From Dechloromonas sp. TW-R-39-2 (GTDB lineage Bacteria; Pseudomonadota; Gammaproteobacteria; Burkholderiales; Rhodocyclaceae), in contig NZ_CP045202.1 of the NCBI RefSeq assembly GCF_016864195.1, forward strand, positions 2,201,001 through 2,265,000: 64,000 nt of DNA, in the 5' to 3' direction. This document shows positions 5,381 to 28,546 of the stretch, piece by piece. Numbering within the stretch: the first letter of the stretch is position 1; each line of letters starts with the position of its first letter. The notes beneath the pieces were generated by a model, which saw only the letters and a program-made list of their open reading frames with translations, was not told the DNA's origin and searched no databases. The position numbers were made by a program, and so were the translations under genes.

Positions 5381-6088
5381 TCAGCGCGTTGCTTTTTTCA
5401 CCGCGCCATCGCAGCTATTGGCCAGCCGCTCGTATTCTTCCGGCGTATCTATCAGCGCCTGTGCAGCATCGACTCGCTTGATCTCACGTTGGACATAGGG
5501 CACCCAACGCTCCTCCAACTCCTGTTGCAGACGCGTTCGTGCCAAGCCAACCGGACCGCGCCAAACATCACCCGTCGCAAACCGGCGGGTAAGCATCTCG
5601 CCGACATCCTTCTCAATAGCGGCAATATGGCTTTGGTAGGCCTTCACATGGCGTAATTCATGTTCATAAATTTCCTTGTAGGCACAACTACCTTCGGGAA
5701 ACTCACGCGCCACATAGACTGTCATGGGGCTGAATCCATAGGTCAGCGTAATTTGCGGGCTGATGCATTCCCAGCGCCCGCTTTGGTCGACATATCCCGG
5801 TGTCTGGCTTGAAAACTGAACACTGGCATTGCCACGAGTCAGCCCCAACACAAGACTGCCAGGCTTCATCGATCCCGCGCCAATATTGGTCAATGACCGG
5901 TAGCCATACTGGAAATTGAGCGATATTTTTTCTTCAAGACGTTTGATCACGACCGCCGGAGCCGGCAGTTTTTCACACTCATCAGCCAGCAATCCGGCTG
6001 GAGAAAATCCGATCGTGACAACAGCTATCCGAACCCATAATCCGGCAAGCGCAAGTAAGCGGATCAAGCGCAGCAGACCATTCAGCAT
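5381..6088 (-). CDS. Secreted HExxH protein, DUF922-like putative zinc protease
   Basis: The 235-residue protein has an N-terminal hydrophobic segment (about residues 7-33) that may be a signal peptide or anchor. The motif H-E-L-R-H-V-K-A-Y in mid-protein fits the HExxH zinc-binding signature and the surroundings of DUF922-type secreted proteases. It overlaps the upstream RNase H-like gene by seven bases, so the two are probably cotranscribed. The substrate is unknown. It converges with the ankyrin gene with a 14-base gap and no obvious terminator. Confidence 0.75.
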   Translation of the reverse strand: MLNGLLRLIRLLALAGLWVRIAVVTIGFSPAGLLADECEKLPAPAVVIKRLEEKISLNFQYGYRSLTNIGAGSMKPGSLVLGLTRGNASVQFSSQTPGYVDQSGRWECISPQITLTYGFSPMTVYVAREFPEGSCAYKEIYEHELRHVKAYQSHIAAIEKDVGEMLTRRFATGDVWRGPVGLARTRLQQELEERWVPYVQREIKRVDAAQALIDTPEEYERLANSCDGAVKKATR

Positions 6089-6573
6089 GCGGCATTTCCT
6101 GCGTGCAGATCAGCGAGCGTATTGCCTCGGCAATACGAATGGCCTTTGACCCAGCGGAACTCCGCACGACTCAACACCATCTCGATAATCGACAGAGAAA
6201 ACTCGGCAGGCAGCGCATCCAAGTTTTGAACGCCGTTGGTTTTTGCTTGTTTCAAGGCGTTGACCGCATCAAGGTTATCGCTGAACACCGTCAGCGGACT
6301 TTCCGGGCAATGGATCTCGGCCTGAAGCAAGCCGAACAGGACGGCATGCAACTCCAAGGTACTGCTTCCAAGAGCTGGAACCGTGCGAGTTTCGATAATT
6401 GGCTCAGCCTCCGGGCTGGAGAACAGTACGGCAGCCAGACCGCCGTGCCGTTGATGACTGGCATCGGTAAAAACAAGCAACTGTCCAGCGTAGAGATGAG
6501 CAATACGCTGCGGTAACGGGCCAGCCGACTGATAAATGACGCGTATTTTCTTCTTCGGTTTTCTGCGCGACAT
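6082..6573 (-). CDS. RNase H-fold protein
   Basis: The 163-residue protein carries an RNase HI-like domain with the expected acidic residues in order: T-D-A-S, L-E-L-H-A, S-D-N and A-D-L-H-A near the C-terminus, plus K-G-H-S at the flexible histidine loop. This suggests cleavage of RNA in RNA-DNA hybrids, although it is more divergent than housekeeping RnhA. The ATG at 6573 was chosen; the frame stays open to a TTG at 6642, giving 23 extra residues, and no strong Shine-Dalgarno site decides between them. Confidence 0.72.
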   Translation of the reverse strand: MSRRKPKKKIRVIYQSAGPLPQRIAHLYAGQLLVFTDASHQRHGGLAAVLFSSPEAEPIIETRTVPALGSSTLELHAVLFGLLQAEIHCPESPLTVFSDNLDAVNALKQAKTNGVQNLDALPAEFSLSIIEMVLSRAEFRWVKGHSYCRGNTLADLHAGNAAC

Positions 6574-6666
6574 TTCAGCCGGATGAAGGTGGATCACAAG
6601 ATGCCCGAATCTTAAACTGACTTCTTGTTTTGCCGCGTGCAAATCCTTTGGAAGCTTGTCTTTATA

Positions 6667-6694
6667 ACTTCGTATAATTTGTATTATGTAAAAT
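6667..6694 (+). other. dif: Candidate chromosomal dif site (XerC/XerD recombination site)
   Basis: The 28 bases read as an XerC arm ACTTCGTATAA, a six-base centre TTTGTA and an XerD arm TTATGTAAAAT. Aligned by hand to the E. coli dif site, 21 of 28 positions agree, including most of the XerD arm. The site lies in an AT-rich gap between the sox-side terminator and the RNase H-like gene, and outside any gene. The first 13 bases from 6664 also equal a loxP arm, which is expected for a related tyrosine-recombinase site. No search was run. Confidence 0.65.
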
Positions 6695-6697: not shown

Positions 6698-6733
6698 TAA
6701 AACAAAAAGAAATCAAATTCGATCTTTGATTTC
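6698..6733 (-). terminator. Rho-independent terminator of the sox/rhodanese operon
   Basis: On the minus strand GAAATCAAA and TTTGATTTC form a perfect nine-base stem around a seven-base loop (6709-6733), followed by a T-rich run (6698-6708). It lies about 30 bases beyond the rhodanese stop codon. Confidence 0.85.
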
Positions 6734-6762
6734 CTCTTGAGCACACCAGTTTGCCATCCGGT

Positions 6763-7368
6763 CTATTTCGGAAAATACATTTTTGTCTTATCCAGCTTGT
6801 AGGACCACGGCAGATTGGTGTTCTTCCAGCCGTTGACCGTACGGCGGTTGGCGGATGGGCCTTCTTTGCCCATGTCGCCTTCAAATCCTTCGGCAATGCT
6901 GTAAACCGACGAGAAGCCGCTCATGGCCAACAAGTCAGATGCTTTGGCACTCCGATCACCGGAACGGCAGATCAGAATGATGCGCGATTGTTTGTTGAGT
7001 CCTTTATCTGTCAGACGACGTTCAACCTCTTTGGGAAAATCGACATTCGGTTCGAGCACATAAATATTCCGCTTGTCATCCCATTCACCCATGATTTCCT
7101 GATGCTCGACGTAAGGAACCAAGGCATCAACGGCGCTCGGCATACCAACATACATGGCTTCTGCACGCGTGCGTATATCCAGAAAAAGCGTGTTTTTTCC
7201 TTCCTTCTGAACCATTTCATAGGCTTGCTGCGGTGTCAGGTAAAGCCCCTGTCGGGATTGTTTGACGGTCGGCAGATTGGCCCAGTCGCTTGCGCCCTGC
7301 TTCCATTCCTGGGCGTGGGAAACCGTGGCCAGACAAGCCAGCGAAAGAATACAAAGCGTACGTTTCAT
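6763..7368 (-). CDS. Periplasmic rhodanese-domain protein of the sox operon
   Basis: The 201-residue protein has a Sec signal peptide (about 1-19, ending S-H-A-Q) and a single rhodanese domain with the active-site loop C-R-S-G-D-R-S. Rhodaneses move sulfane sulfur, so a periplasmic one downstream of soxB fits sulfur handling during thiosulfate or polysulfide oxidation. An AGGGA ribosome site precedes the ATG. It is the last gene before the terminator at 6698-6733 and most likely belongs to the sox transcript, though 83 bases separate it from soxB. Confidence 0.88.
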   Translation of the reverse strand: MKRTLCILSLACLATVSHAQEWKQGASDWANLPTVKQSRQGLYLTPQQAYEMVQKEGKNTLFLDIRTRAEAMYVGMPSAVDALVPYVEHQEIMGEWDDKRNIYVLEPNVDFPKEVERRLTDKGLNKQSRIILICRSGDRSAKASDLLAMSGFSSVYSIAEGFEGDMGKEGPSANRRTVNGWKNTNLPWSYKLDKTKMYFPK

Positions 7369-11608: not shown

Positions 11609-12658
11609 TTACTTCGCGCCGGACAGAATCCACTTGACCAGTGTCTTCAAGTCCTCATCCTTCAGGTGCCCATTCGGCGGCATCGGGACCGCCCCCCAGA
11701 CGCCCTGCCCGCCAGCCTTGACCTTGGCCACCAGGCGATCCTCTGCATCGGGCTGGTCCTTGTAGCGGGCCAGCACTTCGTTGTAGCCAGGACCAACGAT
11801 CTTGTTATTGACGCCATGGCAGGCCATGCAGCCGTTCTTGGTCGCTATTTCCATCGCCGGATTGGCCGCCGGTTTGGTTGTCGCTGCCGGCGAACCAAGC
11901 GTGCGGGTGCCACGCACCGGGCCGAAGGAGCGGTATTGATCGGCCAGTTCGCCGTGGGCTGTGCGGGCATAATCCGGCAAGGTGGAACCGATCAGCACGT
12001 CGCTCTTGCAGTTCTTCATGCAGGCCGTGTTCTTGACGTCCGGCGTGCCGCCGTTGCCGATACCGCCTTTTTGGGCCGAAGCACCCGGCCACATGCCGTG
12101 GTCGGTCGTCATGCCGTTACGGTTGGGCAGCAGCTTTTGCACATCGCCCATATTCTTGTCGGACAACTCGAAATCGCCGGGGACGATTTCCTGCAAATTC
12201 AGCAAGTAAGCCAGGATGGCGTAGACATCGTCCGGTTTCAGCGACTTCGGTGCCGTCCAGGGCATGGCGCGCTGGATATAGTCGAAAACGGTTGAAATGG
12301 TAGCCACCTTGGTAAACGTCGTACGCTGCGGCAACTCACCGGAAGACAGCCCCTTGACCCGGCCGGTCTTGATATCGTCCTTGGTCGTGCCGCCGGCCAG
12401 CGGCGTGAATACCTCGTTCGACTCACCGAACGAACCATGGCACGAAGCACATTTTTCTTCGAAAACCTCCTGGCCGCGCTCGACATTACCCTTGCCCTTC
12501 GGCAAGCCCTTGAAGTCTGGGCGTACGTCGATGTCCCAAGCCTTGACTTCAGCCGGCGTCGCCTGGCGCCCGACTCCCTTGAAGTTATCGAAAGGCAATG
12601 CTGCGGTCGACACCCCGAAAATGGCTAAAACGAGAACCGATTTAGAGAACCTGGACAT
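11609..12658 (-). CDS. soxD: Dihaem cytochrome SoxD, sulfane dehydrogenase subunit
   Basis: The 349-residue protein has a signal peptide and two haem motifs, C-A-S-C-H and C-M-A-C-H, in separate cytochrome c domains. SoxD accepts electrons from the molybdoprotein SoxC during oxidation of sulfane sulfur on SoxY. GGGGAGG precedes the ATG at 12658, whose first 17 bases overlap the end of soxC, suggesting translational coupling. A longer open frame (to 12814) lies entirely inside soxC in another frame and is rejected. Confidence 0.95.
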   Translation of the reverse strand: MSRFSKSVLVLAIFGVSTAALPFDNFKGVGRQATPAEVKAWDIDVRPDFKGLPKGKGNVERGQEVFEEKCASCHGSFGESNEVFTPLAGGTTKDDIKTGRVKGLSSGELPQRTTFTKVATISTVFDYIQRAMPWTAPKSLKPDDVYAILAYLLNLQEIVPGDFELSDKNMGDVQKLLPNRNGMTTDHGMWPGASAQKGGIGNGGTPDVKNTACMKNCKSDVLIGSTLPDYARTAHGELADQYRSFGPVRGTRTLGSPAATTKPAANPAMEIATKNGCMACHGVNNKIVGPGYNEVLARYKDQPDAEDRLVAKVKAGGQGVWGAVPMPPNGHLKDEDLKTLVKWILSGAK

Positions 12659-13991
12659 TGGTGACCTCCCCGCTTTCAATGACTTTCCAGGACTGGATGG
12701 CGTTGTTGTGATAAATCGACTTGGTCCCGCGTACCTTGCGAAGCTGGCCATAACTCGGCTGGACATAGCCGGTTTCATCGATTGCCCGCGACTGCAAGAT
12801 CGCCGGTTTACCATCCCACACCCAGTTGATGTTGAAGCGGGTCAGCGCCTTGTTTTGCACCGGACCTTCGATCCGTGCGGTCTGCCAGTTGATGCCGCCA
12901 TCGAAAGAAACATCAACCTGCTTGATGCGACCGCGGCCCGACCAGGCCAGACCGGTGACGTTGTAGAACCCCTTGTCGAGCAGCGTCTGACCGCCCGATG
13001 GCGAGGTAATCACCGACTTGGCTTCCTGGATGGAACTGTACTGACGATGCAGGCCATTCGGCTGCAGGTCGATGTAATGCACAGCTTCATCCTTGGTCGC
13101 ATACGGCTTGTCACCGACTTCGATGCGACGCAGCCATTTGACCCAGGAAACCCCCTGAACGCCAGGCACGATGAGGCGCAGCGGATAACCGTTTTCCGGC
13201 CGCAGCATTTCACCATTCTGACCATAAGCAACGAAAACCTCACCGGACTCGACCATTTCCATCGGAATGGTCCGCGTCATCGACGAGCCATCGGCGCCTT
13301 CGGCCAGCACATAGCGGGCTTTCTTGTAATCGACGCCACAGTCTTCGAGCAGCAGTTTGAGCGGCACCCCGGTAAACTCTGAACAGGACAGCATGCCATG
13401 GGTGTATTGCACGGTCGGAACGGCAACATTGCCCCACTCCAACCCGGTATTCGCGCCGCATTCGATAAAGTGAATGCGCGATACCGAAGGCAGGCGCATC
13501 AGTTCATCCATCGTGTAAACCTTGGGCTTTTTCAGCAGCGAATCATCAGAACCATTGATCATCAGGCGATGCCGGGCCGGATCGACATCCTGCCAGCCCT
13601 GGTGATGGCGCTCAAAATGCAGTCCAGACGGTGTAATGATGCCAAACAGCCCTTGTAGCGGTGCAAATGAAACCGAAGCACCGCCCACTCGTGCCAATCC
13701 GGGAGACTCACGACGCAGAAGCTGGCTTTCAAATTTCGACGGCATGCCATAAGGATTGGTTGCTACCGGTTTGCCAAGAGTCGTGGACCATTCCGGCAGC
13801 TCCAGGATATTGCGATCCCCTTCGCTGGCCGCACGCGCCGCCAGCGGCATGGCCAGGGTTGCCCCTGCAGCCATAAAACTTTTGCGCAGAAAATCACGTC
13901 GCCCCGCAGCCACAGCCTTGACCTGCGCCTCCGACAGAAAGTTTTCCGGGGCATGCTTCAGGCGCCCAGGTTGTTTCACTATATCGACCAT
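12642..13991 (-). CDS. soxC: Molybdopterin sulfane dehydrogenase SoxC
   Basis: The 449-residue member of the sulfite oxidase family has a Tat leader (G-R-R-D-F-L-R-K-S-F at about residue 30). The molybdenum-ligating cysteine sits in F-I-E-C-G-A-N-T-G, and a Mo-co dimerisation domain fills the C-terminal third. With SoxD it removes six electrons from the sulfane sulfur on SoxY, giving complete oxidation without sulfur globules. It is the first structural gene, 33 bases after the regulator, so soxR and the structural genes are probably one transcript. Confidence 0.96.
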   Translation of the reverse strand: MVDIVKQPGRLKHAPENFLSEAQVKAVAAGRRDFLRKSFMAAGATLAMPLAARAASEGDRNILELPEWSTTLGKPVATNPYGMPSKFESQLLRRESPGLARVGGASVSFAPLQGLFGIITPSGLHFERHHQGWQDVDPARHRLMINGSDDSLLKKPKVYTMDELMRLPSVSRIHFIECGANTGLEWGNVAVPTVQYTHGMLSCSEFTGVPLKLLLEDCGVDYKKARYVLAEGADGSSMTRTIPMEMVESGEVFVAYGQNGEMLRPENGYPLRLIVPGVQGVSWVKWLRRIEVGDKPYATKDEAVHYIDLQPNGLHRQYSSIQEAKSVITSPSGGQTLLDKGFYNVTGLAWSGRGRIKQVDVSFDGGINWQTARIEGPVQNKALTRFNINWVWDGKPAILQSRAIDETGYVQPSYGQLRKVRGTKSIYHNNAIQSWKVIESGEVTNVQVL

Positions 13992-14024
13992 AGAGTTGAT
14001 CCCCCTCCGTTTATTGAATTTGAA

Positions 14025-14357
14025 TTACCGCTTGTTGCGGCTGCTCAATCCCATCTGTTCGCCCAGGTCCCGACTTGCCACCGTGATGCTGACCGTCCGG
14101 CAAATATCAACAAAATTTGGATCGATCACGCGGTACAGAACTGAACTTCCTTCCCGCCGCCGTTCAACCACGCCGGCGCGATAAAGAATGTTCAGGTGGC
14201 GAGAAATGTTGGCTTGCGTCAGACCGATTTTTTCAACGACTTCGTGAACCGGCCGCTCCTCCATGCAAAGACAGGAAAGGATGCGCAGACGCGTCGGATC
14301 GGCCAGCAATCCAAAGTAATGCGCCACCTGTTCGTAGACCTGAAGAGCTTCGTCCAT
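14025..14357 (-). CDS. soxR: ArsR-family repressor of the sox operon
   Basis: The 110-residue winged-helix protein is of the ArsR/SmtB type: L-A-D-P-T-R-L-R-I-L-S-C-L, C-M-E-E-R-P-V-H-E-V and L-T-Q-A-N-I-S-R-H-L-N-I-L form the DNA-binding region. Sox-linked ArsR repressors sense sulfur compounds through cysteines, and C-L-C-M-E offers two close cysteines here. ATG at 14357 was chosen; a TTG at 14387 would add ten residues. It heads the soxCDYZAXB operon and diverges from the cytochrome/flavoprotein pair. The name follows sox usage, not the MerR-type SoxR of E. coli. Confidence 0.88.
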   Translation of the reverse strand: MDEALQVYEQVAHYFGLLADPTRLRILSCLCMEERPVHEVVEKIGLTQANISRHLNILYRAGVVERRREGSSVLYRVIDPNFVDICRTVSITVASRDLGEQMGLSSRNKR

Positions 14358-14539
14358 GCCGTTTTTTTGATTTAGATTAACAATCAATGTATAACTGCAT
14401 ACTTATATAGTCAACTACTAATATGTTGCGATGTAGCATGCAATTTGGGCTAAAGGGCTTTACCCTTGAGCCTGTGCTGATCCAGAAAAACAAAAATCGG
14501 CTATAAACCCTGTCACCATCACTCAGAGGAGATGTCTCG
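14358..14539. promoter_or_regulatory. Divergent sox control region
   Basis: This AT-rich gap between soxR and the cytochrome gene must hold promoters for both directions. It contains the near-palindrome TAGTCAACTA (14408-14417, 8 of 10 positions symmetric), a GTAT/ATAC pair close to the soxR side, and a nine-base hairpin (14449-14471, one mismatch, loop CTTTA) in the leader of the cytochrome gene. Any of these could be the SoxR operator; nothing seen decides between them. Confidence 0.5.
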
Positions 14540-14845
14540 ATGAAACTGCTATCTACCGCCGCTGCGGTGTGCCTGATTGCCACAAGTAGCGTGGCATACG
14601 CTGCTGATCCCAACCTTGGTCGCAATCTGGCTGCCACCTGTGCAAATTGTCATGGCACCAACGGCAACGCAGTCAAGGGCGCCGGACTGGATTCTCTGGC
14701 CGGCATCCCCAAAGACAAGACTCTCCAGAAACTGGCTGATTTCAAGAATGGCGACAAACCCGCATCGATCATGCACCAGATTTCCAAGGGTTACACCGAC
14801 GAGCAACTGGACCTGATTGCCACCTATTTCGCCGCACAAAAATAA
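14540..14845 (+). CDS. Monohaem c-type cytochrome paired with FccB-like flavoprotein
   Basis: The 101-residue protein has a signal peptide (ending A-Y-A-A) and one haem motif C-A-N-C-H, resembling cytochrome c553 and the small subunit of flavocytochrome c sulfide dehydrogenase (FccA/SoxE). A GAGGAG-like site precedes the ATG. It sits 12 bases before the flavoprotein gene, so the two likely form an electron-transfer complex in the periplasm. The usual methionine ligand lies in the C-terminal part (S-I-M-H-Q-I-S-K-G). Confidence 0.88.
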   Translation: MKLLSTAAAVCLIATSSVAYAADPNLGRNLAATCANCHGTNGNAVKGAGLDSLAGIPKDKTLQKLADFKNGDKPASIMHQISKGYTDEQLDLIATYFAAQK

Positions 14846-14857
14846 GGGGAGAACAAA

Positions 14858-16138
14858 ATGATGCTGATGAAACGACGTGATTTCCTGAAAATGGGGGCAG
14901 CAGCCAGCGCGATGGCCTCGATGTACGGCTGCGGCGCCATGGGTGGCAAGGCAAACGGTCATGTAGTCGTGGTAGGTGGGGGCTATGGCGGTGCAACTGT
15001 CGCCAAGTATCTGCGCATGTGGAGCGAGGGCGGCGTGCACGTCACGCTGATCGAACGTAATCCGACGTTTATTTCATGCCCGATTTCCAATCTGGTCATC
15101 GGTGGCACAAAAACGATGGAAGACATCACCGTCAGTTACGAAAACCTCAAAAGCAAATGGGGCGTACGTGTCGTCCAGGATGAGGTTCTCGCGGTCGACG
15201 CGGCAAAACGCACGGTTTCGCTCAAATCCGGCGCCTCCCTGAATTACGATCGCCTCGTACTCTCACCGGGGGTCGATTTCATGTGTGATGAAATCCCCGG
15301 CCTCAAAGGCGCGGATGCTCAAGCCCAAATTCTGCATGCCTGGAAAGCTGGCCCGCAGACAGTTGCCCTGCGCAAACAGCTGGAATCGATGAAAGATGGC
15401 GGCACCTACGCCATCTCCATTCCCAAAGCACCCTACCGTTGCCCGCCCGGCCCCTACGAGCGCGCTTGCCTGGTTGCCGATTATTTCAAAAAGAACAAAC
15501 CCAAATCAAAGGTTGTCATTCTTGACGCCAATGAGGACGTCATGTCCAAAAAGGCCCTGTTCACCAAGGCCTGGGGCGATCTCTACAAAGGCATGATCGA
15601 GTATCGCAACAACAGTGAGGTGAAAGACGTTGAAGTGGCCAGCAACACCGCAATCCTTGAATTCGACAAGTTCAAGGCGGATGTGCTGAACGTCATCCCA
15701 CCGCACCGTGCTGGCGATATCGCCCACAAATCAGGCATCAAGCTGATCAACAATCGCTGGGTCGATATCAACTGGCTGAGCATGGAGTCCACCAGTACGC
15801 CAGGAATTCATGTCCTGGGTGATGCCATCTTCCCTGCCCCAACGATGCCGAAATCCGGCCACATGGCAAATCAACACGGCAAGCTGGCTGCTGCAGCCAT
15901 CCTTAACCTGATGGCCGGGTTGGAACCTAATCCGGCCCCCGTGGTGATGAATACCTGCTACAGCTTCGTCGATGCCAAAAACGTGATTCACGTTGCATCC
16001 GTGCACCAGTACGACGCTGCGACCAAGACCGTGCAACCAGTCAAGGGAGCCGGTGGAGTCTCTGCGGCACGCAACGAACTGGAAGGCAAGGTTGCCATGG
16101 GTTGGGCAAAAAATATCTGGGCTGACATGCTGACCTGA
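14858..16138 (+). CDS. fccB: Flavocytochrome c sulfide dehydrogenase flavoprotein (FccB/SoxF)
   Basis: The 426-residue protein has a Tat leader (K-R-R-D-F-L-K-M), an FAD-binding G-G-G-Y-G-G-A-T and the two redox cysteines typical of FccB/SQR-like enzymes, in F-I-S-C-P-I-S-N and in Y-R-C-P-P-G-P-Y-E-R. FccB oxidises sulfide to sulfane sulfur and passes electrons to its cytochrome subunit; the sox-linked version SoxF can reactivate the Sox system. AAGGGGAG precedes the ATG. A strong terminator follows. Whether it should be called fccB or soxF cannot be told from sequence alone. Confidence 0.92.
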   Translation: MMLMKRRDFLKMGAAASAMASMYGCGAMGGKANGHVVVVGGGYGGATVAKYLRMWSEGGVHVTLIERNPTFISCPISNLVIGGTKTMEDITVSYENLKSKWGVRVVQDEVLAVDAAKRTVSLKSGASLNYDRLVLSPGVDFMCDEIPGLKGADAQAQILHAWKAGPQTVALRKQLESMKDGGTYAISIPKAPYRCPPGPYERACLVADYFKKNKPKSKVVILDANEDVMSKKALFTKAWGDLYKGMIEYRNNSEVKDVEVASNTAILEFDKFKADVLNVIPPHRAGDIAHKSGIKLINNRWVDINWLSMESTSTPGIHVLGDAIFPAPTMPKSGHMANQHGKLAAAAILNLMAGLEPNPAPVVMNTCYSFVDAKNVIHVASVHQYDAATKTVQPVKGAGGVSAARNELEGKVAMGWAKNIWADMLT

Positions 16139-16157
16139 ACGCGGGTCGCAGCCATTG

Positions 16158-16184
16158 AAAAAGGCCGCAAATGCGGCCTTTTTT
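16158..16184. terminator. Bidirectional terminator between fccB and cytochrome c4
   Basis: AAGGCCGCA (16161-16169) pairs with TGCGGCCTT (16172-16180), with an A-run before and a T-run after, so it can stop transcripts from both convergent genes. Confidence 0.88.
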
Positions 16185-16201
16185 GTCGACTGTCTTGAAT
16201 C

Positions 16202-16819
16202 TCAATCCAGCGTTGCGATGTACTCGGCAACAGCATGCGTTTCGAGTTCCGAGAGTTTGGATGCAATGGTGTGCATCACCGCATTGTCGTTGGTGCGTTC
16301 CCGCTTGTTGAACTGCTTCAACTGGTCTTCGATGTAACGTGGGTGCTGCCCAGCCAGGCGTGGCAACAGCGGCGTACCGTAGCCCTTGGCACCATGGCAA
16401 CTGGCGCAGGAAGGCAGACCGGAAAACTGGTTGCCGCGGGTAAAGATGAATTTTCCGACGGCAAGCAATTCGGCATCCTTACCTTGCCTGGGCTTGGCTG
16501 TCTTGCCTTCAAAAAAAGCACCGAGTGACTTCATTTCCTCCGGCGTCAGTTCGTCAGCCTGCGGCTTCATCGTGTCGCTCTTGCGCTTGCCGGACTTGAA
16601 GTCGCCCAATTGCTTCGCAATGTACTCGGAGTGCTGTCCGGCCAGTCTCGGGAAAACCGCGCTGGCAGACTCACCTTCGAGTCCGTGACAAAGAAAACAG
16701 CGCCCGGAAACGATCTCCGTAGCCCTTGCCTGGTCCGCCTTTGCATCAGCAAAAACAGGGGCATTCAGTACGGAGAGCAAGGCCCCTGCACATAACAGAA
16801 GAGTTTTTTTATTTCCCAT
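16202..16819 (-). CDS. Dihaem cytochrome c4
   Basis: The 205-residue protein has a signal peptide (ending V-F-A-D) and two similar cytochrome c halves, each with a haem motif (C-F-L-C-H and C-A-S-C-H) and a P-R-L-A-G-Q-H segment after it, which is the hallmark of the c4 family. Cytochrome c4 carries electrons between bc1 complex, Sox enzymes and terminal oxidases. It converges with fccB and diverges from the SoxH-like gene across an AT-rich promoter region. Confidence 0.93.
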   Translation of the reverse strand: MGNKKTLLLCAGALLSVLNAPVFADAKADQARATEIVSGRCFLCHGLEGESASAVFPRLAGQHSEYIAKQLGDFKSGKRKSDTMKPQADELTPEEMKSLGAFFEGKTAKPRQGKDAELLAVGKFIFTRGNQFSGLPSCASCHGAKGYGTPLLPRLAGQHPRYIEDQLKQFNKRERTNDNAVMHTIASKLSELETHAVAEYIATLD

Positions 16820-16850
16820 GCAGCCACCCCATTGATTAAATATTAGTTGT

Positions 16851-16867
16851 TTATTATTAAATAATAA
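16851..16867. promoter_or_regulatory. AT-rich perfect palindrome in divergent promoter
   Basis: TTATTATT and AATAATAA flank a single A, giving a 17-base perfect inverted repeat in the gap between cytochrome c4 and the SoxH-like gene. It could be an operator, although low-complexity AT sequence makes chance palindromes more likely. Confidence 0.4.
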
Positions 16868-16978
16868 TTCGCTTACACTTAGCTTTCAATCGAATACGGA
16901 AAAAGCTTCCGCTACCAGCAAAAATACCATTCAGACAATCAAGTACGAATTTTACGCTGCGATTGCCAGGAGACATTG

Positions 16979-17989
16979 ATGAACCGCCGTCGTTTTCTTC
17001 AAAGTACAGCTGCTTTTTCAACCCTCTCAACGATTGAATTCACGCCTTGGCAAACAATCAGTGCATTTGCCAGGGAGGTTGATGATTTTGTCCGCGGTCC
17101 GGTCGTGAAAGACCATCCGCTCGTGCAAGTCTCGAAACATGTCTGGATGATCCACTCACCCGATGGTTTCCCTACCCCGGAAAACCAGGGGATGATGTGC
17201 AACATCACTTTTGTGAATACCGCCAAAGGGTTGATCGTCGTGGACTCCGGGGCCTCGGTACAAATCGGCGAGATGGCCATCAGGCAAGCTCGGCAGGCCT
17301 TCAAGAAGCCTGTCGTGGCAATCATCAACACCCATTACCACGGCGATCATTGGCTCGGCAATCACGCTTACGTTGAAACTTACGGTGAAAGCCTCCCGAT
17401 CTACGCCCATCCAGGAACAATCAAGGCGGTACAAGGGGTTCAAGGCAACATGTGGCGAACTTTGATGGAGCAATGGACGAACCAGGCCACCTTGGGTACA
17501 CGCGTGGTGCCACCAACTCATCCTCTGGAACATGGCAGCGAATTGAAATACGGTGACGTAACGCTGCGCATGCATCACTTCGGAACCGTGCACACCCCCT
17601 ATGATCTGTGTGTCGAGGTGCTGGAGGACAAACTGGTACTGGTGGGTGATGTCGCAATGGACCGGCGAATTGCCAACATGGACGATGGCTCTTATCTCGG
17701 TACGCTGAAAGCCTACGAAGGACTGGAAAAGACAGGCGCCAATCTCTGGCTTCCCGGGCATGGAAAAGCCAGCGCCCAGGTTCTGCAATGGAATCGCGAA
17801 TTATTCGAGGGCATTTATCGTCCGTGCGAGCAAGCCATCAAGGATGGCCTGGGACTTGAAGAAGCCAAGAAACTGGTTCTCAAGGATTCGCGTGTTGCCA
17901 GCCGCTCGCTCGACACCAAAGGTTTTGACAGCAACATCGGAAAATATGTGAGCCTGGCCTACCTTGAAGCAGAAGCTGCCGGATTTTGA
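16979..17989 (+). CDS. Tat-exported metallo-beta-lactamase-fold hydrolase (SoxH-like)
   Basis: The 336-residue protein has a twin-arginine leader (N-R-R-R-F-L-Q-S) and the MBL metal motif H-Y-H-G-D-H-W, a later H-x-G-x-x-H-T histidine, V-G-D-V-A as aspartate ligand and L-P-G-H-G. Similar proteins are encoded in sox clusters as SoxH, whose exact reaction is unsettled; others belong to quinoprotein relay systems. The ATG at 16979 has AGGAG six bases upstream, and the TTG just before it is rejected. It runs codirectionally with the next two small genes. Confidence 0.85.
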   Translation: MNRRRFLQSTAAFSTLSTIEFTPWQTISAFAREVDDFVRGPVVKDHPLVQVSKHVWMIHSPDGFPTPENQGMMCNITFVNTAKGLIVVDSGASVQIGEMAIRQARQAFKKPVVAIINTHYHGDHWLGNHAYVETYGESLPIYAHPGTIKAVQGVQGNMWRTLMEQWTNQATLGTRVVPPTHPLEHGSELKYGDVTLRMHHFGTVHTPYDLCVEVLEDKLVLVGDVAMDRRIANMDDGSYLGTLKAYEGLEKTGANLWLPGHGKASAQVLQWNRELFEGIYRPCEQAIKDGLGLEEAKKLVLKDSRVASRSLDTKGFDSNIGKYVSLAYLEAEAAGF

Positions 17990-18022
17990 CCCTTCCCTTA
18001 TTCATCCTCAAAGAGAAAACAC

Positions 18023-18322
18023 ATGCGATTGATAACCTTGCTGATCGCCTTGATGACCACCTTCGGCGCACAGGCCGAAACCCCGAAACTACAGGCTGCC
18101 AAACTACTTCATGACAAATCCTGTACCAGTTGCCACATCCGCATGTATGGTCAGGATGGCAGCAAGATGTACACCCGTGACGGTCGTCTGCTCTCCAATA
18201 AACTGGAGATACAACAACGGGTTGCTTCATGCAATGCCACGGTCAACGCCGGCTGGTTCCCGGAAGAGGAAGAAAGCGTCGCAGACTGGTTAAACAAGCA
18301 CTACTACCGGTTCGACAACTGA
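18023..18322 (+). CDS. Small monohaem cytochrome c
   Basis: The 99-residue protein has a signal peptide ending A-Q-A-E and one haem motif C-T-S-C-H. No clear C-terminal methionine loop of class I cytochromes is seen, and the tail (W-L-N-K-H-Y-Y-R-F) is unlike that of the neighbouring c553. It lies 33 bases after the MBL gene and one base before the thioredoxin-like gene, so a three-gene transcript is likely. The role as electron acceptor in periplasmic sulfur chemistry is inferred from context. Confidence 0.82.
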   Translation: MRLITLLIALMTTFGAQAETPKLQAAKLLHDKSCTSCHIRMYGQDGSKMYTRDGRLLSNKLEIQQRVASCNATVNAGWFPEEEESVADWLNKHYYRFDN

Positions 18323-18323
18323 A

Positions 18324-18851
18324 ATGCTGCAAAAGCCCTGCAAGCCTCGGCACTTCCTGATCTGTTCTTTGTTGTTCTGTTGCCTGACAGCCGGCCTCTG
18401 CTCGGCTTTTGCGCAGGTAACTCAAATCGACAAAGCACATGATCTGCAAAGTGAATCTCGCCTTGCCTACCAAAAAAGAGGGCCACTCATCATTCTGTTC
18501 AGTCGCCAGGACTGCAAGTTTTGCGAGATTGTCAGGCGAGATCACTTGAAACCACTGTTGCAGGACCCCCGTTATAAAAACAGGATTGTCATCCGGCAAA
18601 TAGACCAGGGCAGCGGGATGCCACTGACGGATTTCAACGGTCGATCATCGACTCACGCCACATTTACCCGCCAGGAAAAAATAGGTTTTGTCCCGGTGGT
18701 GGCTTTTTATGGCCCCGGTGGCGAGCCGCTTGCTACACCGATCGTCGGATTGCGTTTGCCCGATTTTTATCAAGGCTATCTTGAAGATGCGATCGACAAA
18801 TCAGCAGACATGCTTGGCGCCATCAGTCGGGATCTGTCCCGAAGCCGCTGA
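18324..18851 (+). CDS. Periplasmic thioredoxin-fold protein (SoxW-like)
   Basis: The 175-residue protein has an N-terminal signal segment (about 10-32, ending A-F-A-Q) and a thioredoxin fold with the redox pair C-K-F-C in S-R-Q-D-C-K-F-C-E-I. A cis-proline candidate is in G-F-V-P-V-V-A-F-Y-G. SoxW and similar proteins keep SoxY or other thiols reduced in the periplasm. One base separates it from the cytochrome gene. The CxxC middle residues differ from the usual G-P or P-H of thioredoxin/DsbA, so its redox direction cannot be assigned. Confidence 0.82.
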   Translation: MLQKPCKPRHFLICSLLFCCLTAGLCSAFAQVTQIDKAHDLQSESRLAYQKRGPLIILFSRQDCKFCEIVRRDHLKPLLQDPRYKNRIVIRQIDQGSGMPLTDFNGRSSTHATFTRQEKIGFVPVVAFYGPGGEPLATPIVGLRLPDFYQGYLEDAIDKSADMLGAISRDLSRSR

Positions 18852-18866
18852 ACAACAGCGCTTTTA
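18843..18866 (+). terminator. Possible short terminator overlapping gene end
   Basis: AGCCGCTG and CAGCGCT form an imperfect stem around AACAA, followed by TTTT. The left arm overlaps the stop codon of the thioredoxin-like gene and the end of the convergent gene. Confidence 0.45.
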
Positions 18867-19715
18867 CCCTCCAAAAGCCCGAACGAGCTTCATCGTCTTC
18901 CTCAATTCATCGTAGTCGCTATCGTTGCTTGGCAAAAAACCATTGCGGTCAATGTATTCCAAGGCTGCTCCTTTCATCGAAAAAAGGGTAGACCGCAATG
19001 CCTTGACGACCTCGCGATCCAGCTCCCCCCGTGCAACCCAGGCCTGGGTTGGCGATGGAAAGCGGACGAGTTCGCGCAATCCCTTGTCGACCGCATATTT
19101 TTGAAAGGTTCGCTCATTGGTTGCACCAGCATCGAACGCACCCGCTGCAACGGCAAAAACCACTTTGTCGTGACGCCCCAAATAATCATGGGAGGCCAGA
19201 TCACGAATGGTCAAGCCCGCCTTGACCAGTTCGGCCTGAGGTAAATAACGCCCAGTCGTTGATGTTGGATCGCCAAAAGCAAATTTTTTGCCTCGCAAAT
19301 CGGCAATCGAATGAATGTTTGAAGTATTCGACACAACGATGACACCAGAAAACGCTTTGTCTCCGCCATGGCCTTCGCATGCCAACAAGATCAGTTTTGG
19401 CGCTTTCTGTTTTGCCAGGACGTAATTGACCGGCCCCAGACGGGAAAAATCAACCTCGCCCAGATGCAGGGCCTGAATCGCCTCATCGTACGTCGGGTAA
19501 ATCCGTACTTCGACCTTCGCAGTCACGCCCCTCTCCCGCAAGCCACGCTCGACCTCCTTCTGGAACGGCTCCATTTTGCGCAACTCCTCCGACGGACGCT
19601 CCGTAGCGTAGCTGGCAAAACGCAGCACAAATTCAGCTGCAGTTGCAGGCACTGCCGTCAGGCAAAAAAGTAAGGCCAGGACTGCATCAATTCGTCGGAA
19701 AGCCTGGGTGATCAT
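18864..19715 (-). CDS. Orphan PhnD-like periplasmic binding protein
   Basis: The 283-residue protein has a signal peptide (about 1-27) and the phosphate/phosphite/phosphonate binding fold: F-G-D-P-T-S-T-T-G-R-Y-L-P and G-A-F-D-A-G-A-T-N are close to the PhnD substrate loop. No ABC permease or ATPase gene lies nearby. Its start overlaps the stop of the upstream gene (ATGA), so the two are translationally coupled. Such orphan PhnD-like proteins often feed signals to histidine kinases or bind oxyanions; the ligand here is unknown. A longer open frame to 19850 is rejected because it hides the signal peptide. Confidence 0.82.
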   Translation of the reverse strand: MITQAFRRIDAVLALLFCLTAVPATAAEFVLRFASYATERPSEELRKMEPFQKEVERGLRERGVTAKVEVRIYPTYDEAIQALHLGEVDFSRLGPVNYVLAKQKAPKLILLACEGHGGDKAFSGVIVVSNTSNIHSIADLRGKKFAFGDPTSTTGRYLPQAELVKAGLTIRDLASHDYLGRHDKVVFAVAAGAFDAGATNERTFQKYAVDKGLRELVRFPSPTQAWVARGELDREVVKALRSTLFSMKGAALEYIDRNGFLPSNDSDYDELRKTMKLVRAFGG

Positions 19716-20566
19716 GCTTCGACCAGCATGATGGGCCGTGATGAAACCGGATCGTCGTAGAAAAATATCGGCGGCACAGCTTGGAAAATGCCGGACTGTT
19801 GCAGTGCGAGATAAAGCGTAGAAGCCTGCTTGAGAAGCTTGTAATCCCAATTACCCTGCATTGTTTTTTCGACCTTGAAGGATAGTTCCGACTCCAGTAA
19901 CTTGCTGCTGTTGTGTTGCCAGCGATTAACCAGCATCCAGGAGGTCAGATCCGCACCGCCCCACGCTGTACGCATGTCATCAAAGACAAACTCATCCCAA
20001 TGGGAAACTTCTTCGAGTTTGGTTTGTGGCGAGGCTATCTGAGCAAGTGCTGGAAAATAATCGGCAAAGAACCCCATTTTTTTGACGTTCGTCTGACGTC
20101 CTTTAAGAAACAGCGAGCCGGATGCACAGTATTTCAGGTTGCTGAAATGCAGATCCTGCTCAAGCTTGAATTTTGTCGCGTGCTTTTTGTATTGGGCAGC
20201 CGCCACAAGGTTCGGAAAGCAGGCGGAATGCTTGGGCTTGTCGAATAACAGCTCAGGGACAAATTGATGTTGCTTGCACTTGAGCTTGGTCTGTTGGTCA
20301 GTCGCTTCAATGGCCAGCGTCAGATTCTGCTGCTTAAATGCTTTCCCTGCCGTATCGAAACGGATACCCTCGCGCAGCCAGGAAGTTTCATTGAACGCCA
20401 GGGTGGTTTCCCCTCCCCTCGCCAGGCGAAGTACACACTCGGCAATCACCTGAGTCACCCGCATGAATATTTCACGATCCGTCACACCGGGAACACCCTC
20501 TGTCCCAGACCACAGAACCTTCAATTGAAATTCTTTACTTTCCTGCAAAGCAAGCTTGTCGGCCAT
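19712..20566 (-). CDS. Unrecognised cytoplasmic protein coupled to PhnD-like gene
   Basis: The 284-residue protein has no signal peptide or membrane segment. I do not recognise it with certainty. The N-terminal E-F-Q-L-K, then R-F-D-T-A-G-K-A-F and alternating strands ending T-K-L-K-C-K-Q recall the start of CYTH triphosphate tunnel enzymes, whose ExExK would here be ExQxK. This is only a resemblance. Several cysteines are scattered. Its stop overlaps the ATG of the PhnD-like gene. ATG at 20566 was chosen over a TTG six bases earlier. Confidence 0.75.
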   Translation of the reverse strand: MADKLALQESKEFQLKVLWSGTEGVPGVTDREIFMRVTQVIAECVLRLARGGETTLAFNETSWLREGIRFDTAGKAFKQQNLTLAIEATDQQTKLKCKQHQFVPELLFDKPKHSACFPNLVAAAQYKKHATKFKLEQDLHFSNLKYCASGSLFLKGRQTNVKKMGFFADYFPALAQIASPQTKLEEVSHWDEFVFDDMRTAWGGADLTSWMLVNRWQHNSSKLLESELSFKVEKTMQGNWDYKLLKQASTLYLALQQSGIFQAVPPIFFYDDPVSSRPIMLVEA

Positions 20567-20639
20567 GAGCAACTCGATTTGATAAATGCATAAGTGCTTC
20601 CACGTTAGACAAACAGGCTGGCATGGTCAAGATCGATTT

Positions 20640-20777
20640 ATGAAATCGTCAAATGAAAGACACCGTCGTTTGAACATCGACAGCACCGACTTGGCGGTCG
20701 ATCGGATGCACGCTCTTTTGCACTGGATGGTGAACGGCAATCCATTGGAAGCCAGTCAAACGCGGCCCCTTGCATGA
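20640..20777 (+). CDS. Possible 45-residue protein coupled to the GIY-YIG gene
   Basis: The frame from ATG 20640 ends in a TGA that overlaps the ATG of the next gene (ATGA), the usual sign of coupling. The product is basic at the N-terminus and contains a short hydrophobic stretch (H-A-L-L-H-W-M-V). No family is recognised and the ribosome site is weak, so it may be chance. Confidence 0.4.
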   Translation: MKSSNERHRRLNIDSTDLAVDRMHALLHWMVNGNPLEASQTRPLA

Positions 20778-21046
20778 AAGCTGCCAAGCCCTGGTTTCTC
20801 TACTTGATCGAATGTGTCGATGGCAGTATCTACACGGGAATTACCGTTGATATTGCTGCACGGTACGCTGCGCATGCACAAGGAAAAGGGGCTCGCTATA
20901 CACGTGCGCACCCGCCGCTCAGACTCCTCGGCTACGAATCACACCCGGACCGCTCATCCGCATCGAAAGCGGAATACCGGATCAAGAAACTCTCGGCGAC
21001 AGAGAAGCGTAAATACGCAGATCGACTGACGTTGCCAGCCGATTGA
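20774..21046 (+). CDS. GIY-YIG nuclease-domain protein (UPF0213/YhbQ-like)
   Basis: The 90-residue protein consists of a single GIY-YIG domain: L-I-E-C-V-D-G-S-I-Y-T-G-I-T, with the conserved arginine in A-A-R-Y-A-A-H, and K-A-E-Y-R-I-K-K-L with the catalytic glutamate. YhbQ-like proteins are small DNA nucleases of uncertain role in repair. Length is typical. It overlaps the preceding small frame by four bases. Confidence 0.88.
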   Translation: MKAAKPWFLYLIECVDGSIYTGITVDIAARYAAHAQGKGARYTRAHPPLRLLGYESHPDRSSASKAEYRIKKLSATEKRKYADRLTLPAD

Positions 21047-21090
21047 TTTTCCCTTCTACGGGAAGTTGACCGCAGCAAAGCCTGTGCGGC

Positions 21091-21549
21091 TCAGTTCAAG
21101 TCCTCATCCTTGACGGTCGGCAAGCGAAGCACCGGAATTCCCTCATCACGCAAAGCTTCGCACTCATCCTCGGTAGCCTGACCGCGAATTGCACGTTCAG
21201 GAGCTTCGTTGTAATGGATTTTTCGCGCCTCTTCAGCAAAAGCCGTCCCGACATTCTCGCTCTCGGCAGCCATGGCTTGAACAAGTTGCTGATACAAGGC
21301 CATGGCCTGCGCACCGGCAGGCATCATCGCGGAGCTTGGCGCACTCTTGGGCGAAGAAACAGGTGCTTCGACCGGCGTGGAACGATGCGTCGCTATTGCA
21401 ACAGCCGATGGCAGGCGGCGTACATCGTGGCTATCGCAGCAAGGACAGGTCACCAGTCGGCGATTTTGTTGCGAAACAAAATCATCGGCACTTTGAAACC
21501 ACCCCTCGAAACGATGGTCGTTGGAACAGCTCAAATCGTAAATAATCAT
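21091..21549 (-). CDS. DUF1178 family protein
   Basis: The 152-residue protein starts with the typical M-I-I-Y-D-L-S-C and H-R-F-E-G-W-F of DUF1178 and has a C-P-C-C zinc-ribbon-like pair around residue 36, so an N-terminal metal-binding knuckle is likely. The middle (T-P-V-E-A-P-V-S-S-P) is a low-complexity linker. The function of the family is unknown. It stands alone between the GIY-YIG gene and dgt. Confidence 0.85.
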   Translation of the reverse strand: MIIYDLSCSNDHRFEGWFQSADDFVSQQNRRLVTCPCCDSHDVRRLPSAVAIATHRSTPVEAPVSSPKSAPSSAMMPAGAQAMALYQQLVQAMAAESENVGTAFAEEARKIHYNEAPERAIRGQATEDECEALRDEGIPVLRLPTVKDEDLN

Positions 21550-21610
21550 GTGGTCGGCAGTTAAATCGGGAGTTCAGGCGCTCTCCGGGGCAAACATCAT
21601 GCACCGCAAA

Positions 21611-21636
21611 GGCCCCCACCTTCAGGCGGGGGGCGC
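21611..21636 (-). terminator. Likely terminator of dgt
   Basis: A GC-rich hairpin with a TTCA loop (CCCCC paired with GGGGG, one internal mismatch) lies 26 bases beyond the dgt stop. On the minus strand it is followed by CCTTT, a weak T-run. Confidence 0.5.
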
Positions 21637-21661
21637 GATCATAGCACTCATGCTCCGAGAT

Positions 21662-23005
21662 TCAGCTGGGCAGCGCAAAGCCCTTCAATTTCCGGTACAT
21701 GTCGACCGCATACGAATCGGTCATGCCGGCCACAAAATCGGCAACTTGCAGCAGACGGACATACGGGTCTGCATCCGGCTCGCCACCGTGCCCCAGGAAC
21801 TGGGCCGGCAGGAGTTTAAGAAGCATTCGTTCGCGCGTGGTAAATCGGGCATGCCCGGCCTTCGCCTCTACCGCATTGCTGAACAAGCCAAGCAAGGCAC
21901 CCAGCACTTCAAAACCAGCCGTTTCAATTTCCAGCGCAGGTCGCGCGGTATAAATGGTTTCCTTGGCCAGCTTCAGCACGGCCTGAAGCGGAATGGCGAT
22001 CGGGGATTGCTCAAGCAATTCATCATCAAACCGACCATTCAGGATAGCCTCCTCATTTTCAAGGAACACAGCGGCCGCACTGTCGAGCAAGCGACCAATC
22101 GCCTTGGCACGCAAATACTCAAGCCTTTCTTTCGGGTCATGCAAGCGATCCATCCGGCCACCGCTGACCGAGTTACCTGCCAGATCGGCCAGCAAGCACT
22201 CGGCATCGCGATAAGGCACGAAACCAAGCTTGGCAGCATCCTCAAGATCGACAATCAGGTAACAGGTATCGTCAGCCACTTCGACAAGGAAAGCCAGGGG
22301 ATGGCGCCGCCAGGCTTGTCCTGGAATTCGCTCAACCAGCCCCGTCGACCGCGCAACGCCTTCAAAAGCAGCCGCATCCTGTTGGAAAAAGCCGAATTTC
22401 TTGCTGCTTTTCCCATCCAGCGATGTTTCAAGATGTGATGGCCGTGGATATTTGGTAAATGTCGCCAGAACCGCACTCGTCAACTGCAACCCCGGGTTCG
22501 CCGGGTTCTGAAGACGGGTCACGATCCGGAACCCCTGCGCATTACCTTCATAAAGCTCGAAATCAGCGCGCTGGGCAGGCGTAAAAGGATGGCGCTCAAG
22601 CAACCCGGAGGTTCGAAACCACTCGCGGATGGCGTCTTCGCCGGCATGGCCAAAAGGCGGATTACCAATATCGTGCGCCAGACAAGCGGCGGCAACAATC
22701 GCCCCGAAGTCGCCTGATTCGACATGCTGCAGGCCATGCCGGGCGATGATCTCGCGACCAACCACAGCCCCCAGCGAACGCCCGACACAACTGGCTTCAA
22801 GGCTGTGCGTCAGCCGGGTCCGGACATAATCGCTCTTGGACAGCGGAAAAACCTGCGTCTTGTCCTTCATGCGCCGGAAGGCCGAGGTAAAGACGATGCG
22901 ATCATAATCCTGCTGAAACGGGGTACGCTCAGGCGTTCCAGGTGCTTTTCCAGCCCCTGGACGATCAGCAGACAAAAGTTTTTCCCAGATTTTTCTTTGG
23001 CTCAT
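21662..23005 (-). CDS. dgt: Deoxyguanosinetriphosphate triphosphohydrolase-like protein
   Basis: The 447-residue HD-domain protein has T-R-L-T-H-S-L-E and A-H-D-I-G-N-P-P-F-G-H-A-G-E as the metal-binding HD motifs. Dgt hydrolyses dGTP to deoxyguanosine and tripolyphosphate and tunes dNTP pools. The length and motifs fit the type 2 dGTPase-like subgroup. The adjacent thioesterase gene lies 21 bases upstream in the same direction, so they may share a transcript. Confidence 0.92.
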   Translation of the reverse strand: MSQRKIWEKLLSADRPGAGKAPGTPERTPFQQDYDRIVFTSAFRRMKDKTQVFPLSKSDYVRTRLTHSLEASCVGRSLGAVVGREIIARHGLQHVESGDFGAIVAAACLAHDIGNPPFGHAGEDAIREWFRTSGLLERHPFTPAQRADFELYEGNAQGFRIVTRLQNPANPGLQLTSAVLATFTKYPRPSHLETSLDGKSSKKFGFFQQDAAAFEGVARSTGLVERIPGQAWRRHPLAFLVEVADDTCYLIVDLEDAAKLGFVPYRDAECLLADLAGNSVSGGRMDRLHDPKERLEYLRAKAIGRLLDSAAAVFLENEEAILNGRFDDELLEQSPIAIPLQAVLKLAKETIYTARPALEIETAGFEVLGALLGLFSNAVEAKAGHARFTTRERMLLKLLPAQFLGHGGEPDADPYVRLLQVADFVAGMTDSYAVDMYRKLKGFALPS

Positions 23006-23026
23006 GAGCGCCAGTTTACCTGAGCT

Positions 23027-23437
23027 TCAGGCTGCTTCGATCACCGCTCTGACATGATCCGGAATCGGCGCCGATTTGCCGGTTTGCGTATCCATCCAGA
23101 CGACCTTGGCAGCCCCTTCGGCATACAGGGTTTCATTGCCTTCGAGTCGCATCTCGACATAAGTCTGGACGCTGGATCGCCCCGGTACGCCAACAAAGGT
23201 ACGAACCTCGACCATGCCCGGATAATTCAGCGGCACAAGGAAGGTACAGCTGGCATTGATAATGACTGGCCCCAACCCACCTGGACGTACTTCGACCTTC
23301 AAATCTTCCAGCCACTCGACCCGGGCTTGCTCCATGTAACGAAAATAGACCGTGTTGTTAACGTGCCCGTAAGCATCCATGTCGCCCCAGCGAATTGGCA
23401 TTTTCGTGACGTGAATAAGTTTCTTGCTGTGTTCCAT
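23027..23437 (-). CDS. Acyl-CoA thioesterase of the 4HBT hot-dog family
   Basis: The 136-residue single hot-dog domain protein has the 4HBT signature R-W-G-D-M-D-A-Y-G-H-V-N-N-T-V-Y-F-R-Y, where the aspartate is catalytic. Such proteins (YbgC, FadM-like) hydrolyse acyl-CoA thioesters. It diverges from the ETF-QO gene, which also belongs to acyl-CoA oxidation, suggesting a common setting in fatty-acid turnover. Confidence 0.88.
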   Translation of the reverse strand: MEHSKKLIHVTKMPIRWGDMDAYGHVNNTVYFRYMEQARVEWLEDLKVEVRPGGLGPVIINASCTFLVPLNYPGMVEVRTFVGVPGRSSVQTYVEMRLEGNETLYAEGAAKVVWMDTQTGKSAPIPDHVRAVIEAA

Positions 23438-23475
23438 ATCCTTGATAATTCGAAGGGGTTGATCTAAGTTATTCC

Positions 23476-23489
23476 ATACTGTACCGTAT
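23476..23489. promoter_or_regulatory. Near-palindromic candidate operator
   Basis: ATACTGTACCGTAT is symmetric at 12 of 14 positions and lies between the divergent thioesterase and ETF-QO genes. Its position would suit a regulator of fatty-acid oxidation genes, but it does not match any operator I can name. Confidence 0.4.
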
Positions 23490-23526
23490 TGTTTACAACG
23501 TCACAATATAAAACCAAGGAGACATC

Positions 23527-25173: not shown

Positions 25174-25178
25174 TGCTT

Positions 25179-25184
25179 TATAAT
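25179..25184 (+). promoter_or_regulatory. Possible -10 box of fabI
   Basis: TATAAT lies 33 bases before the fabI start, just after the ETF-QO stop. No good -35 hexamer is seen 16-18 bases upstream. Confidence 0.35.
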
Positions 25185-25216
25185 CCTGAGGCTAAACCCC
25201 TTAGGGAGAACAATAT

Positions 25217-26014
25217 ATGGGCTTTCTCGCCGACAAAAAAATTCTGATCACCGGTCTGCTTTCCAAGCACTCCATTGCCTACGGCATTGCCAAGGCCTGC
25301 CATCGTGAAGGCGCTCAACTTGCCTTCACGTACCAGAACGAGCGTTTTGAAGACCGCATCAAAAAATTTGCTGCCGAATTCGGTAGCGACATCACCATTC
25401 CGGTCGACGTCAGCAGCGATGAGCAGATCAACAATCTGTTCACCGAACTGGCCAAACGCTGGGATGGTCTGGATGGCCTGGTTCACTCCATCGCCTACGC
25501 ACCGACTGAAGCCATTGAAGGTGACTTCCTTGAGGGCATCACACGTGACGCCTTCCGTATCGCCCACGAAATTTCTTCGTACAGCTATCCGGCCTTGGTC
25601 AAGGCAGCACGTCCGATGATGCAAGGTCGCAAGAGCGCCGCGCTGGCCCTCTCCTACCTTGGCGCCGAACGCACCATGCCGAACTACAACACCATGGGTC
25701 TGGCCAAGGCCAGCCTGGAAGCTGCAACACGCTACCTGGCTTTCTGCCTCGGCCCTGAAGGCATTCGTGCCAACGCCATTTCGGCCGGCCCGATCAAGAC
25801 CCTGGCTGCCTCCGGCATTGGTAACTTTGGTAAGCTGCTGGCTTACAACTCCCACAATGCCCCGTTGCGCCGCAACGTGACCATCGAGGAAGTTGGCAAC
25901 GCCGCCGCCTTCATGCTGTCCGATCTGGCCAGCGGTGTTACCGGTGAAATCATGTACGTCGATGGCGGCATGAATACGGTTGCCCTCGGCAACGCCGACC
26001 CCTTGCCCGCCTAA
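25217..26014 (+). CDS. fabI: Enoyl-ACP reductase (NADH) FabI
   Basis: The 265-residue short-chain dehydrogenase has the divergent FabI nucleotide site ([15 protein letters not shown]) and the catalytic Y-x6-K in [10 protein letters not shown]. FabI reduces enoyl-ACP in the last step of each fatty-acid elongation cycle and is the target of triclosan. AGGGAG precedes the ATG. Two stem-loops follow the gene. Confidence 0.97.
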
Positions 26015-26033
26015 GCTTTCGATACCGAGAGAT

Positions 26034-26083
26034 TTCGCGGTCTACGCGAAAAAGCCGACCAAAACAACGGGTCGGCTTTTTTT
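26034..26083 (+). terminator. Tandem stem-loop terminator after fabI
   Basis: TTCGCG/CGCGAA (26034-26050) is followed immediately by AAAGCCGACC paired with GGTCGGCTTT (26051-26079) and a T-run. The second hairpin is a canonical rho-independent terminator; it may also serve the convergent exporter gene. Confidence 0.88.
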
Positions 26084-28530: not shown

Positions 28531-28546
28531 TGTAGAGTGTTTGCTC

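Follow-up and report, generated by a model that had tools for sequence, protein, structure and literature searches.

What is the 28-bp AT-rich sequence at positions 6667–6694 of a 64,000-nucleotide stretch of the Dechloromonas sp. TW-R-39-2 chromosome (the window; genome positions 2,201,001–2,265,000), and does it mark the end of chromosome replication, of chromosome segregation, or of both? On the evidence below, this sequence is almost certainly the single chromosomal dif of the organism. The first-pass annotation had read it as the marker of the chromosome terminus; that description holds for the segregation terminus as defined by KOPS orientation, whereas the replication terminus, judged by strand composition, lies about 34 kb to its left. 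The site, its parts and its two flanking genes are as follows.

6667..6694, plus strand: dif site, 28 bp (XerC arm, central hexamer and XerD arm), identified by identity to E. coli dif, genome uniqueness and the KOPS switch
6667..6677, plus strand: XerC-binding arm ACTTCGTATAA, assigned through alignment to E. coli dif
6678..6683, plus strand: central hexamer TTTGTA, also found in 17 of 30 tabulated dif sequences
6684..6694, plus strand: XerD-binding arm TTATGTAAAAT; its TTATGT occurs in 30 of 30 tabulated sequences, which is partly built in because these were chosen with a similar pattern
6082..6642, minus strand: RNase H-fold protein (PF00075), start uncertain (open reading frame and family scan)
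6763..7368, minus strand: rhodanese-domain protein (PF00581) (open reading frame and family scan)

The letters of the site read ACTTCGTATAATTTGTATTATGTAAAAT, at genome position 2,207,667. They agree with E. coli dif at 21 of 28 bases and differ at positions 1, 2, 4, 7, 13, 15, and 24; the 11+6+11 layout and the convergence of GGGNAGGG octamers on the site are also common to both. The sequence, its coordinates and the 21/28 count had been given exactly in the first-pass annotation, which had also correctly placed it in a small AT-rich gap free of genes: The site is noncoding (17.9% G+C) and lies in a 120-bp intergenic gap (30.8% G+C) between the open reading frames at 6082–6642 and 6763–7368.

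No rival copy was found elsewhere in the genome. Scoring identity to E. coli dif over 800 kb sampled on both strands (~23% of the genome) returned one score of 21, one of 19, and four of 18. Across the whole genome—3,462,267 bp assembled as one contig, completeness 99.99—the site was the sole match to two degenerate patterns, one of 26 bases and one confined to a 22-base core, each allowed up to three mismatches; both were built from the site itself, and an E. coli-type dif would fall within two mismatches of the first. Backwards control patterns gave 0 and 1 matches genome-wide. The closer match elsewhere that could have displaced this locus is thus absent under both patterns. Two features of a chromosomal dif, a 28-bp sequence with two 11-bp arms around a 6-bp center and a single copy per chromosome, are both found here.

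The dif pattern recurs, at up to three mismatches, in 37 of 59 relatives (38/60 with the own genome) spread over 16 of 25 genera, many of these genomes being drafts. Among 30 tabulated sequences, which represent 30 of 41 places (fetched as loci) and include the window's own, the centers were TTTGTA in 17, TGTATA in 8, TTTATA in 2, TTTGCA in 2, and TGTGTG in 1. A scan of named genomes with TNCGNATAATTTGTATTATGTNAAAT returned 72 stretches, the titles of which include Herbaspirillum, Collimonas, Azonexus, Dechloromonas, Accumulibacter, and Nitrosomonas and a few other names. The recurrence of the pattern in relatives bears on the least credible of the readings that we weighed, in which the 28 bases would be no more than a promoter-like stretch of an intergenic gap or an AT-rich palindrome arisen by chance. 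The gap is indeed AT-rich and also carries a terminator-like hairpin, but the degenerate pattern (up to three mismatches) matched in 0 of 100 window shuffles, positions 6400–7000 hold no sigma-70-like site, the KOPS orientation switches at the matching site in the three relatives checked, and uniqueness together with the KOPS switch in the genome itself contradicts a chance origin.

Two published dif sequences resemble the site. The available part of the tabulation by Carnoy and Roten (2009, PMC2731167), from which the arm names XerC and XerD are taken, gives AACGCGCATAATTTGCATTATGTTAAAT for Dechloromonas aromatica RCB, which has 22/28 bases and the TTTG center in common with our site and differs at six bases (2, 3, 4, 7, 16, and 24); both sites lie near the cumulative GC skew maximum, the offset being 6,365 bp in D. 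aromatica and ~26 kb (raw) here (PMC2731167). The Methylobacillus flagellatus KT dif, ACTTCGCATAATGTATATTATGTAAAAT, is closer still: 25/28 bases are common and the XerD arm is identical, with differences at positions 7, 13, and 15 that give GCATAA for GTATAA and a TGTATA center for TTTGTA (PMC2731167). As far as the available part of that tabulation goes, the site described here is a previously uncatalogued addition to the family.

The orientation of KOPS octamers ties the site to chromosome segregation. Within the window these form one set:

11703..53943, minus strand: 11 KOPS octamers GGGNAGGG, pointing to dif

Their starts are 11703, 15832, 17170, 17990, 20411, 32823, 38151, 38914, 47528, 51788, and 53936. 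The seven positions listed previously all recur in this set, although four octamers (11703, 15832, 17170, and 38151) had been missed; the accompanying statement that none has the opposite orientation stands, with 0 plus and 11 minus, all right of dif. Their number is at chance level (shuffle mean 8.5), and the signal is in the orientation. Because the window holds no KOPS left of dif, convergence could not be judged from it alone and required the flanking genome. Over 200 kb on each side (n = 63), GGGNAGGG occurred as 30 plus and 0 minus on the left and as 2 plus and 31 minus on the right, far from the equal orientations that would have spoken against the site; the two right-hand exceptions point away from dif. 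The best single split fits 61/63 octamers, and its interval, 2,200,925–2,212,703 (11.8 kb), holds dif. In 20 distant sampled stretches, 34 KOPS pointed toward dif and 8 of 42 away.

Such polarity is exceptional among octamers. When octamer families with one free inner position were counted along the leading strand, with dif as the boundary, GGGNAGGG ranked first of 29,211 families near dif and third of 39,176 in an 800-kb pool by strand fraction (at least 30 occurrences), and second of 36,373 and ninth of 43,345 by a z-like score (at least 20 occurrences). Other G-rich octamers are also polarized, less strongly, as in GGGANGGG (15:2 left, 2:14 right). The E. coli KOPS word is thus among the most strand-polarized octamers in this genome.

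Relatives repeat the arrangement. In the near relative G030, 27/28 bases of the 28-mer are kept and the bases just upstream have diverged; KOPS counts around its dif (plus:minus) are 12:1 on the left and 0:18 on the right, with 30/31 fitting a split that holds dif. The corresponding counts are 11:2 and 0:17 in G020 (28/30 fit) and 10:1 and 0:7 in G042 (17/18 fit), and the split again holds dif in both.

An alternative origin for the site is an Xer attachment sequence that an Xer-exploiting phage or island left behind, the working dif lying elsewhere. Elements of this kind seemingly occur in the genus: G011 carries a pair of dif-like sites, equally oriented and separated by ~11.6 kb, that flank phage-type genes. 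At the present locus, by contrast, the genome holds one copy at up to three mismatches, and none of 10 neighbor proteins scanned (6085–14387) is phage-like, these comprising the RNase H-fold protein, rhodanese, a sox cluster, and an ArsR-type regulator. The two left-hand neighbors of dif that were scanned for families gave no telling match. Around the site, 20 kb align with G030 in two blocks at 94–95% (95% over 17 kb), and the KOPS orientation switches at the site. IMEX attachment sites are dif-like 28-mers, as is ours, and, in the available part of their description, paired dif-like sites bound the mobile element (PMC5357621); here there is a single site with no second copy in the genome and no mobile genes among the 10 neighbors scanned beside it. 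We therefore regard a phage or island remnant as very improbable and retain the chromosomal dif reading.

In the G011 element, which spans C32:203748–215349 (3748–15349 of locus L156), 10 open reading frames were scanned. Two could be assigned a function, as a phage lysozyme and a P2 gpA-type replication protein (PF05840, phrog_91); a third matches a PHROG whose function is unknown, a fourth gives only a weak match (E 0.006), and the other 6 match nothing. A homology search with a 320-aa protein of the element found one close copy and no function. Over the 139 kb read, KOPS in G011 pass from plus to minus between 212,614 and 216,727, with exceptions at 137,537 (minus) and 235,221 (plus). The segment looks like an Xer-exploiting element at dif. 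Drafts G017 (contigs C132 and C241) and G053 (C5 and C11, at contig ends) also have two dif-like sites each, on different contigs; these pairs may be either further Xer-integrated elements or the two ends of one assembly break. Elsewhere in the chromosome studied here (C1), a 10-kb stretch at 2317001–2327000 (locus L018) has 39.7% G+C and a skew of −0.216 and lies ~8 kb after a tyrosine-recombinase-like open reading frame at 2,308,130; it is perhaps a genomic island.

Between dif and the rhodanese gene lies one further element:

6703..6739, minus strand: terminator-like hairpin, 15 pairs, with a T-rich tail, 8 bp from dif

Read from 6739 to 6703, the hairpin has a folding energy of −15.1 kcal/mol (z −4.9) and was equaled in 0/200 shuffles; the pattern scan on its own is weak (1 found vs. 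0.7 expected). G030 keeps 14/15 of these pairs and differs at the outermost one, in both of its bases. Such a structure would keep transcripts of the rhodanese gene from running into dif, as if the site were shielded from transcription. That gene is part of a leftward sox cluster adjoining dif (6763–14387), which includes the rhodanese, SoxB, cytochromes c, a SoxA-type protein, SoxZ, and SoxY, and further a molybdopterin oxidoreductase, which we take to be SoxC, and an ArsR-type regulator.

Gene direction around the site had been cited as suited to converging replichores. This is borne out close by: A codon-usage gene caller places 7 plus and 1 minus genes left of dif in the window, one of the 7 probably being a shadow of the minus-strand RNase H-fold open reading frame, and 8 plus and 19 minus genes in the 30 kb to the right. 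Over 200 kb, however, the bias is weak (102/86 plus/minus on the left, 75/85 on the right), and we therefore give it little weight as support. A plain count of open reading frames (87/77 and 80/75; nearest 50 kb, 14/28) was set aside since long shadow frames were counted as genes; the frame opposite the gene at 3928–4710 is an example.

The genome encodes the partners that a working dif would need. XerD lies at C1:964,974–965,837 (368.3 bits, cutoff 329.6) and XerC at about C1:641,000 (343.5 bits, cutoff 335.15), downstream of a DapF-like open reading frame and a second one; from familiar gene order, we presume these to be DapF and DUF484. An FtsK gamma domain is found at C1:2,559,202 in a 793-aa open frame (94.4 bits, cutoff 30.6), of which a 444-aa piece scores 675 bits against a full-length FtsK model with a cutoff of 1566. 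The XerD search returned 9 matches in the genome, only one above cutoff; the others are XerC, an integron integrase (two of the 9), and weaker recombinase-like open reading frames. The integron integrase (TIGR02249, 483.8 bits, cutoff 265) is at C1:2550084–2550959 (locus L078), ~8 kb from ftsK.

What is observed here is the site, its single occurrence in the genome, the convergence of KOPS on it, and the genes of XerC, XerD, and FtsK. The reaction itself would follow the E. coli scheme: Once two sister chromosomes have become joined as a dimer, septal FtsK would load on KOPS and move along each arm toward dif, where its gamma domain would activate XerD on the TTATGTAAAAT arm; XerD and XerC would then exchange strands around the 6-bp center, yielding two monomers. 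XerCD binding, cleavage, and recombination at this site are inferred from these components.

We then compared the position of dif with that of the strand-composition switch. At long range the two agree, with GC skew positive in 10/10 sampled stretches from dnaA to dif and negative in the other 10/10, so that dif is a fitting boundary in all 20 distant stretches. At short range they are near but not coincident. The site had been expected at the skew turn; within ±200 kb, the raw cumulative GC skew maximum is at 2,181,455, 26 kb left of dif (0.8% of the genome), and no turn occurs inside the window, where skew is negative in all but one of the 4-kb segments. The antipode of dnaA (370,505) lies 106 kb (3.1%) left of dif, and the switch described below 34 kb left. 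In the last 30 kb left of dif, raw skew per 10 kb is −0.014, −0.001, and −0.031, and the three KOPS there are all plus.

Because gene direction can shift raw skew, third-codon-position skew was measured per gene strand, using codon-usage gene calls (348 genes in 400 kb, coding fraction 0.86). Beyond 34 kb to the left of dif, this skew is higher in plus genes, as on the leading strand. In the 20 kb adjoining dif on the left it is −0.204 in plus and −0.020 in minus genes, like the right side of dif (−0.258 and +0.040). A one-step model places the switch at 2,173,643, 34.0 kb left of dif. All of 300 gene bootstraps put it left of dif (2.5 and 97.5 percentiles, −62.7 and −31.3 kb), a range that we trust more than the narrower likelihood range of −34.9 to −33.2 kb. 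Between −80 and −40 kb the strand difference is partly reduced, and a gradual switch zone there rather than a sharp step is possible. Gene direction as the cause of the offset is rejected by these per-strand values, both in the present genome and in G030.

The 34-kb stretch between switch and site nevertheless carries segregation signals directed at dif: Eight dif-polarized words run 28:5 toward it and KOPS 3:0. The eight words were picked with dif as the boundary, which makes their count slightly circular; KOPS were picked otherwise. Had the stretch been inverted long ago, its KOPS would be flipped too, which is not seen, though there are only three. Since the skew switches ~34 kb left while words still point to dif, forks probably end replication, on average, to the left of dif, where segregation ends. 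A fork that had already passed dif would copy the 34-kb stretch, and, the left arm being the longer, the meeting point of equal-speed forks would lie 106 kb left of dif. From composition, we lean modestly toward a genome in which segregation and replication end apart, with the skew switching ~34 kb left and KOPS-like words in the 34 kb selected toward dif.

Other genomes set this offset in context. G030 gives a third-position switch at −34.0 kb (−65 to −31), with the antipode ~61 kb left (dnaA at 13); as a near relative, it is not independent support. In G020 the best cut is at −9 kb (bootstrap −77 to +9) and the antipode ~50 kb right of dif, and in G042 the cut is at −27 kb (−86 to +47) and the antipode ~92 kb right. 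These two cuts, neither of which shows a rightward shift, do not establish displacement toward the antipode as a general rule. Published distances from dif to the skew maximum vary, examples being 6,365 bp in D. aromatica and 77,935 bp in Desulfotalea psychrophila (PMC2731167), so the size of the offset here is not unusual.

In a parallel case, a Pseudomonas aeruginosa strain with unequal arms completes segregation at dif but replication elsewhere (PMC6199493). There, as here, segregation signals end at dif and replication apparently ends toward the origin antipode; in P. aeruginosa, however, GC skew switches at dif and not opposite oriC, whereas third-position skew here switches ~34 kb away, on the antipode side (PMC6199493). 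The separate ends were established by experiment in P. aeruginosa and are inferred from composition here, on the available part of that report (PMC6199493).

The segregation terminus of this genome is now fixed to 28 bp. If the separation holds, the genome would distinguish replication from segregation signals that are usually confounded. That replication generally ends at dif was proposed by Hendrickson and Lawrence and disputed by Kono and colleagues (PMC3025954, PMC3317982, as available in part); the offset between word polarity and third-position skew in Dechloromonas sp. TW-R-39-2 would offer a natural case for that debate.
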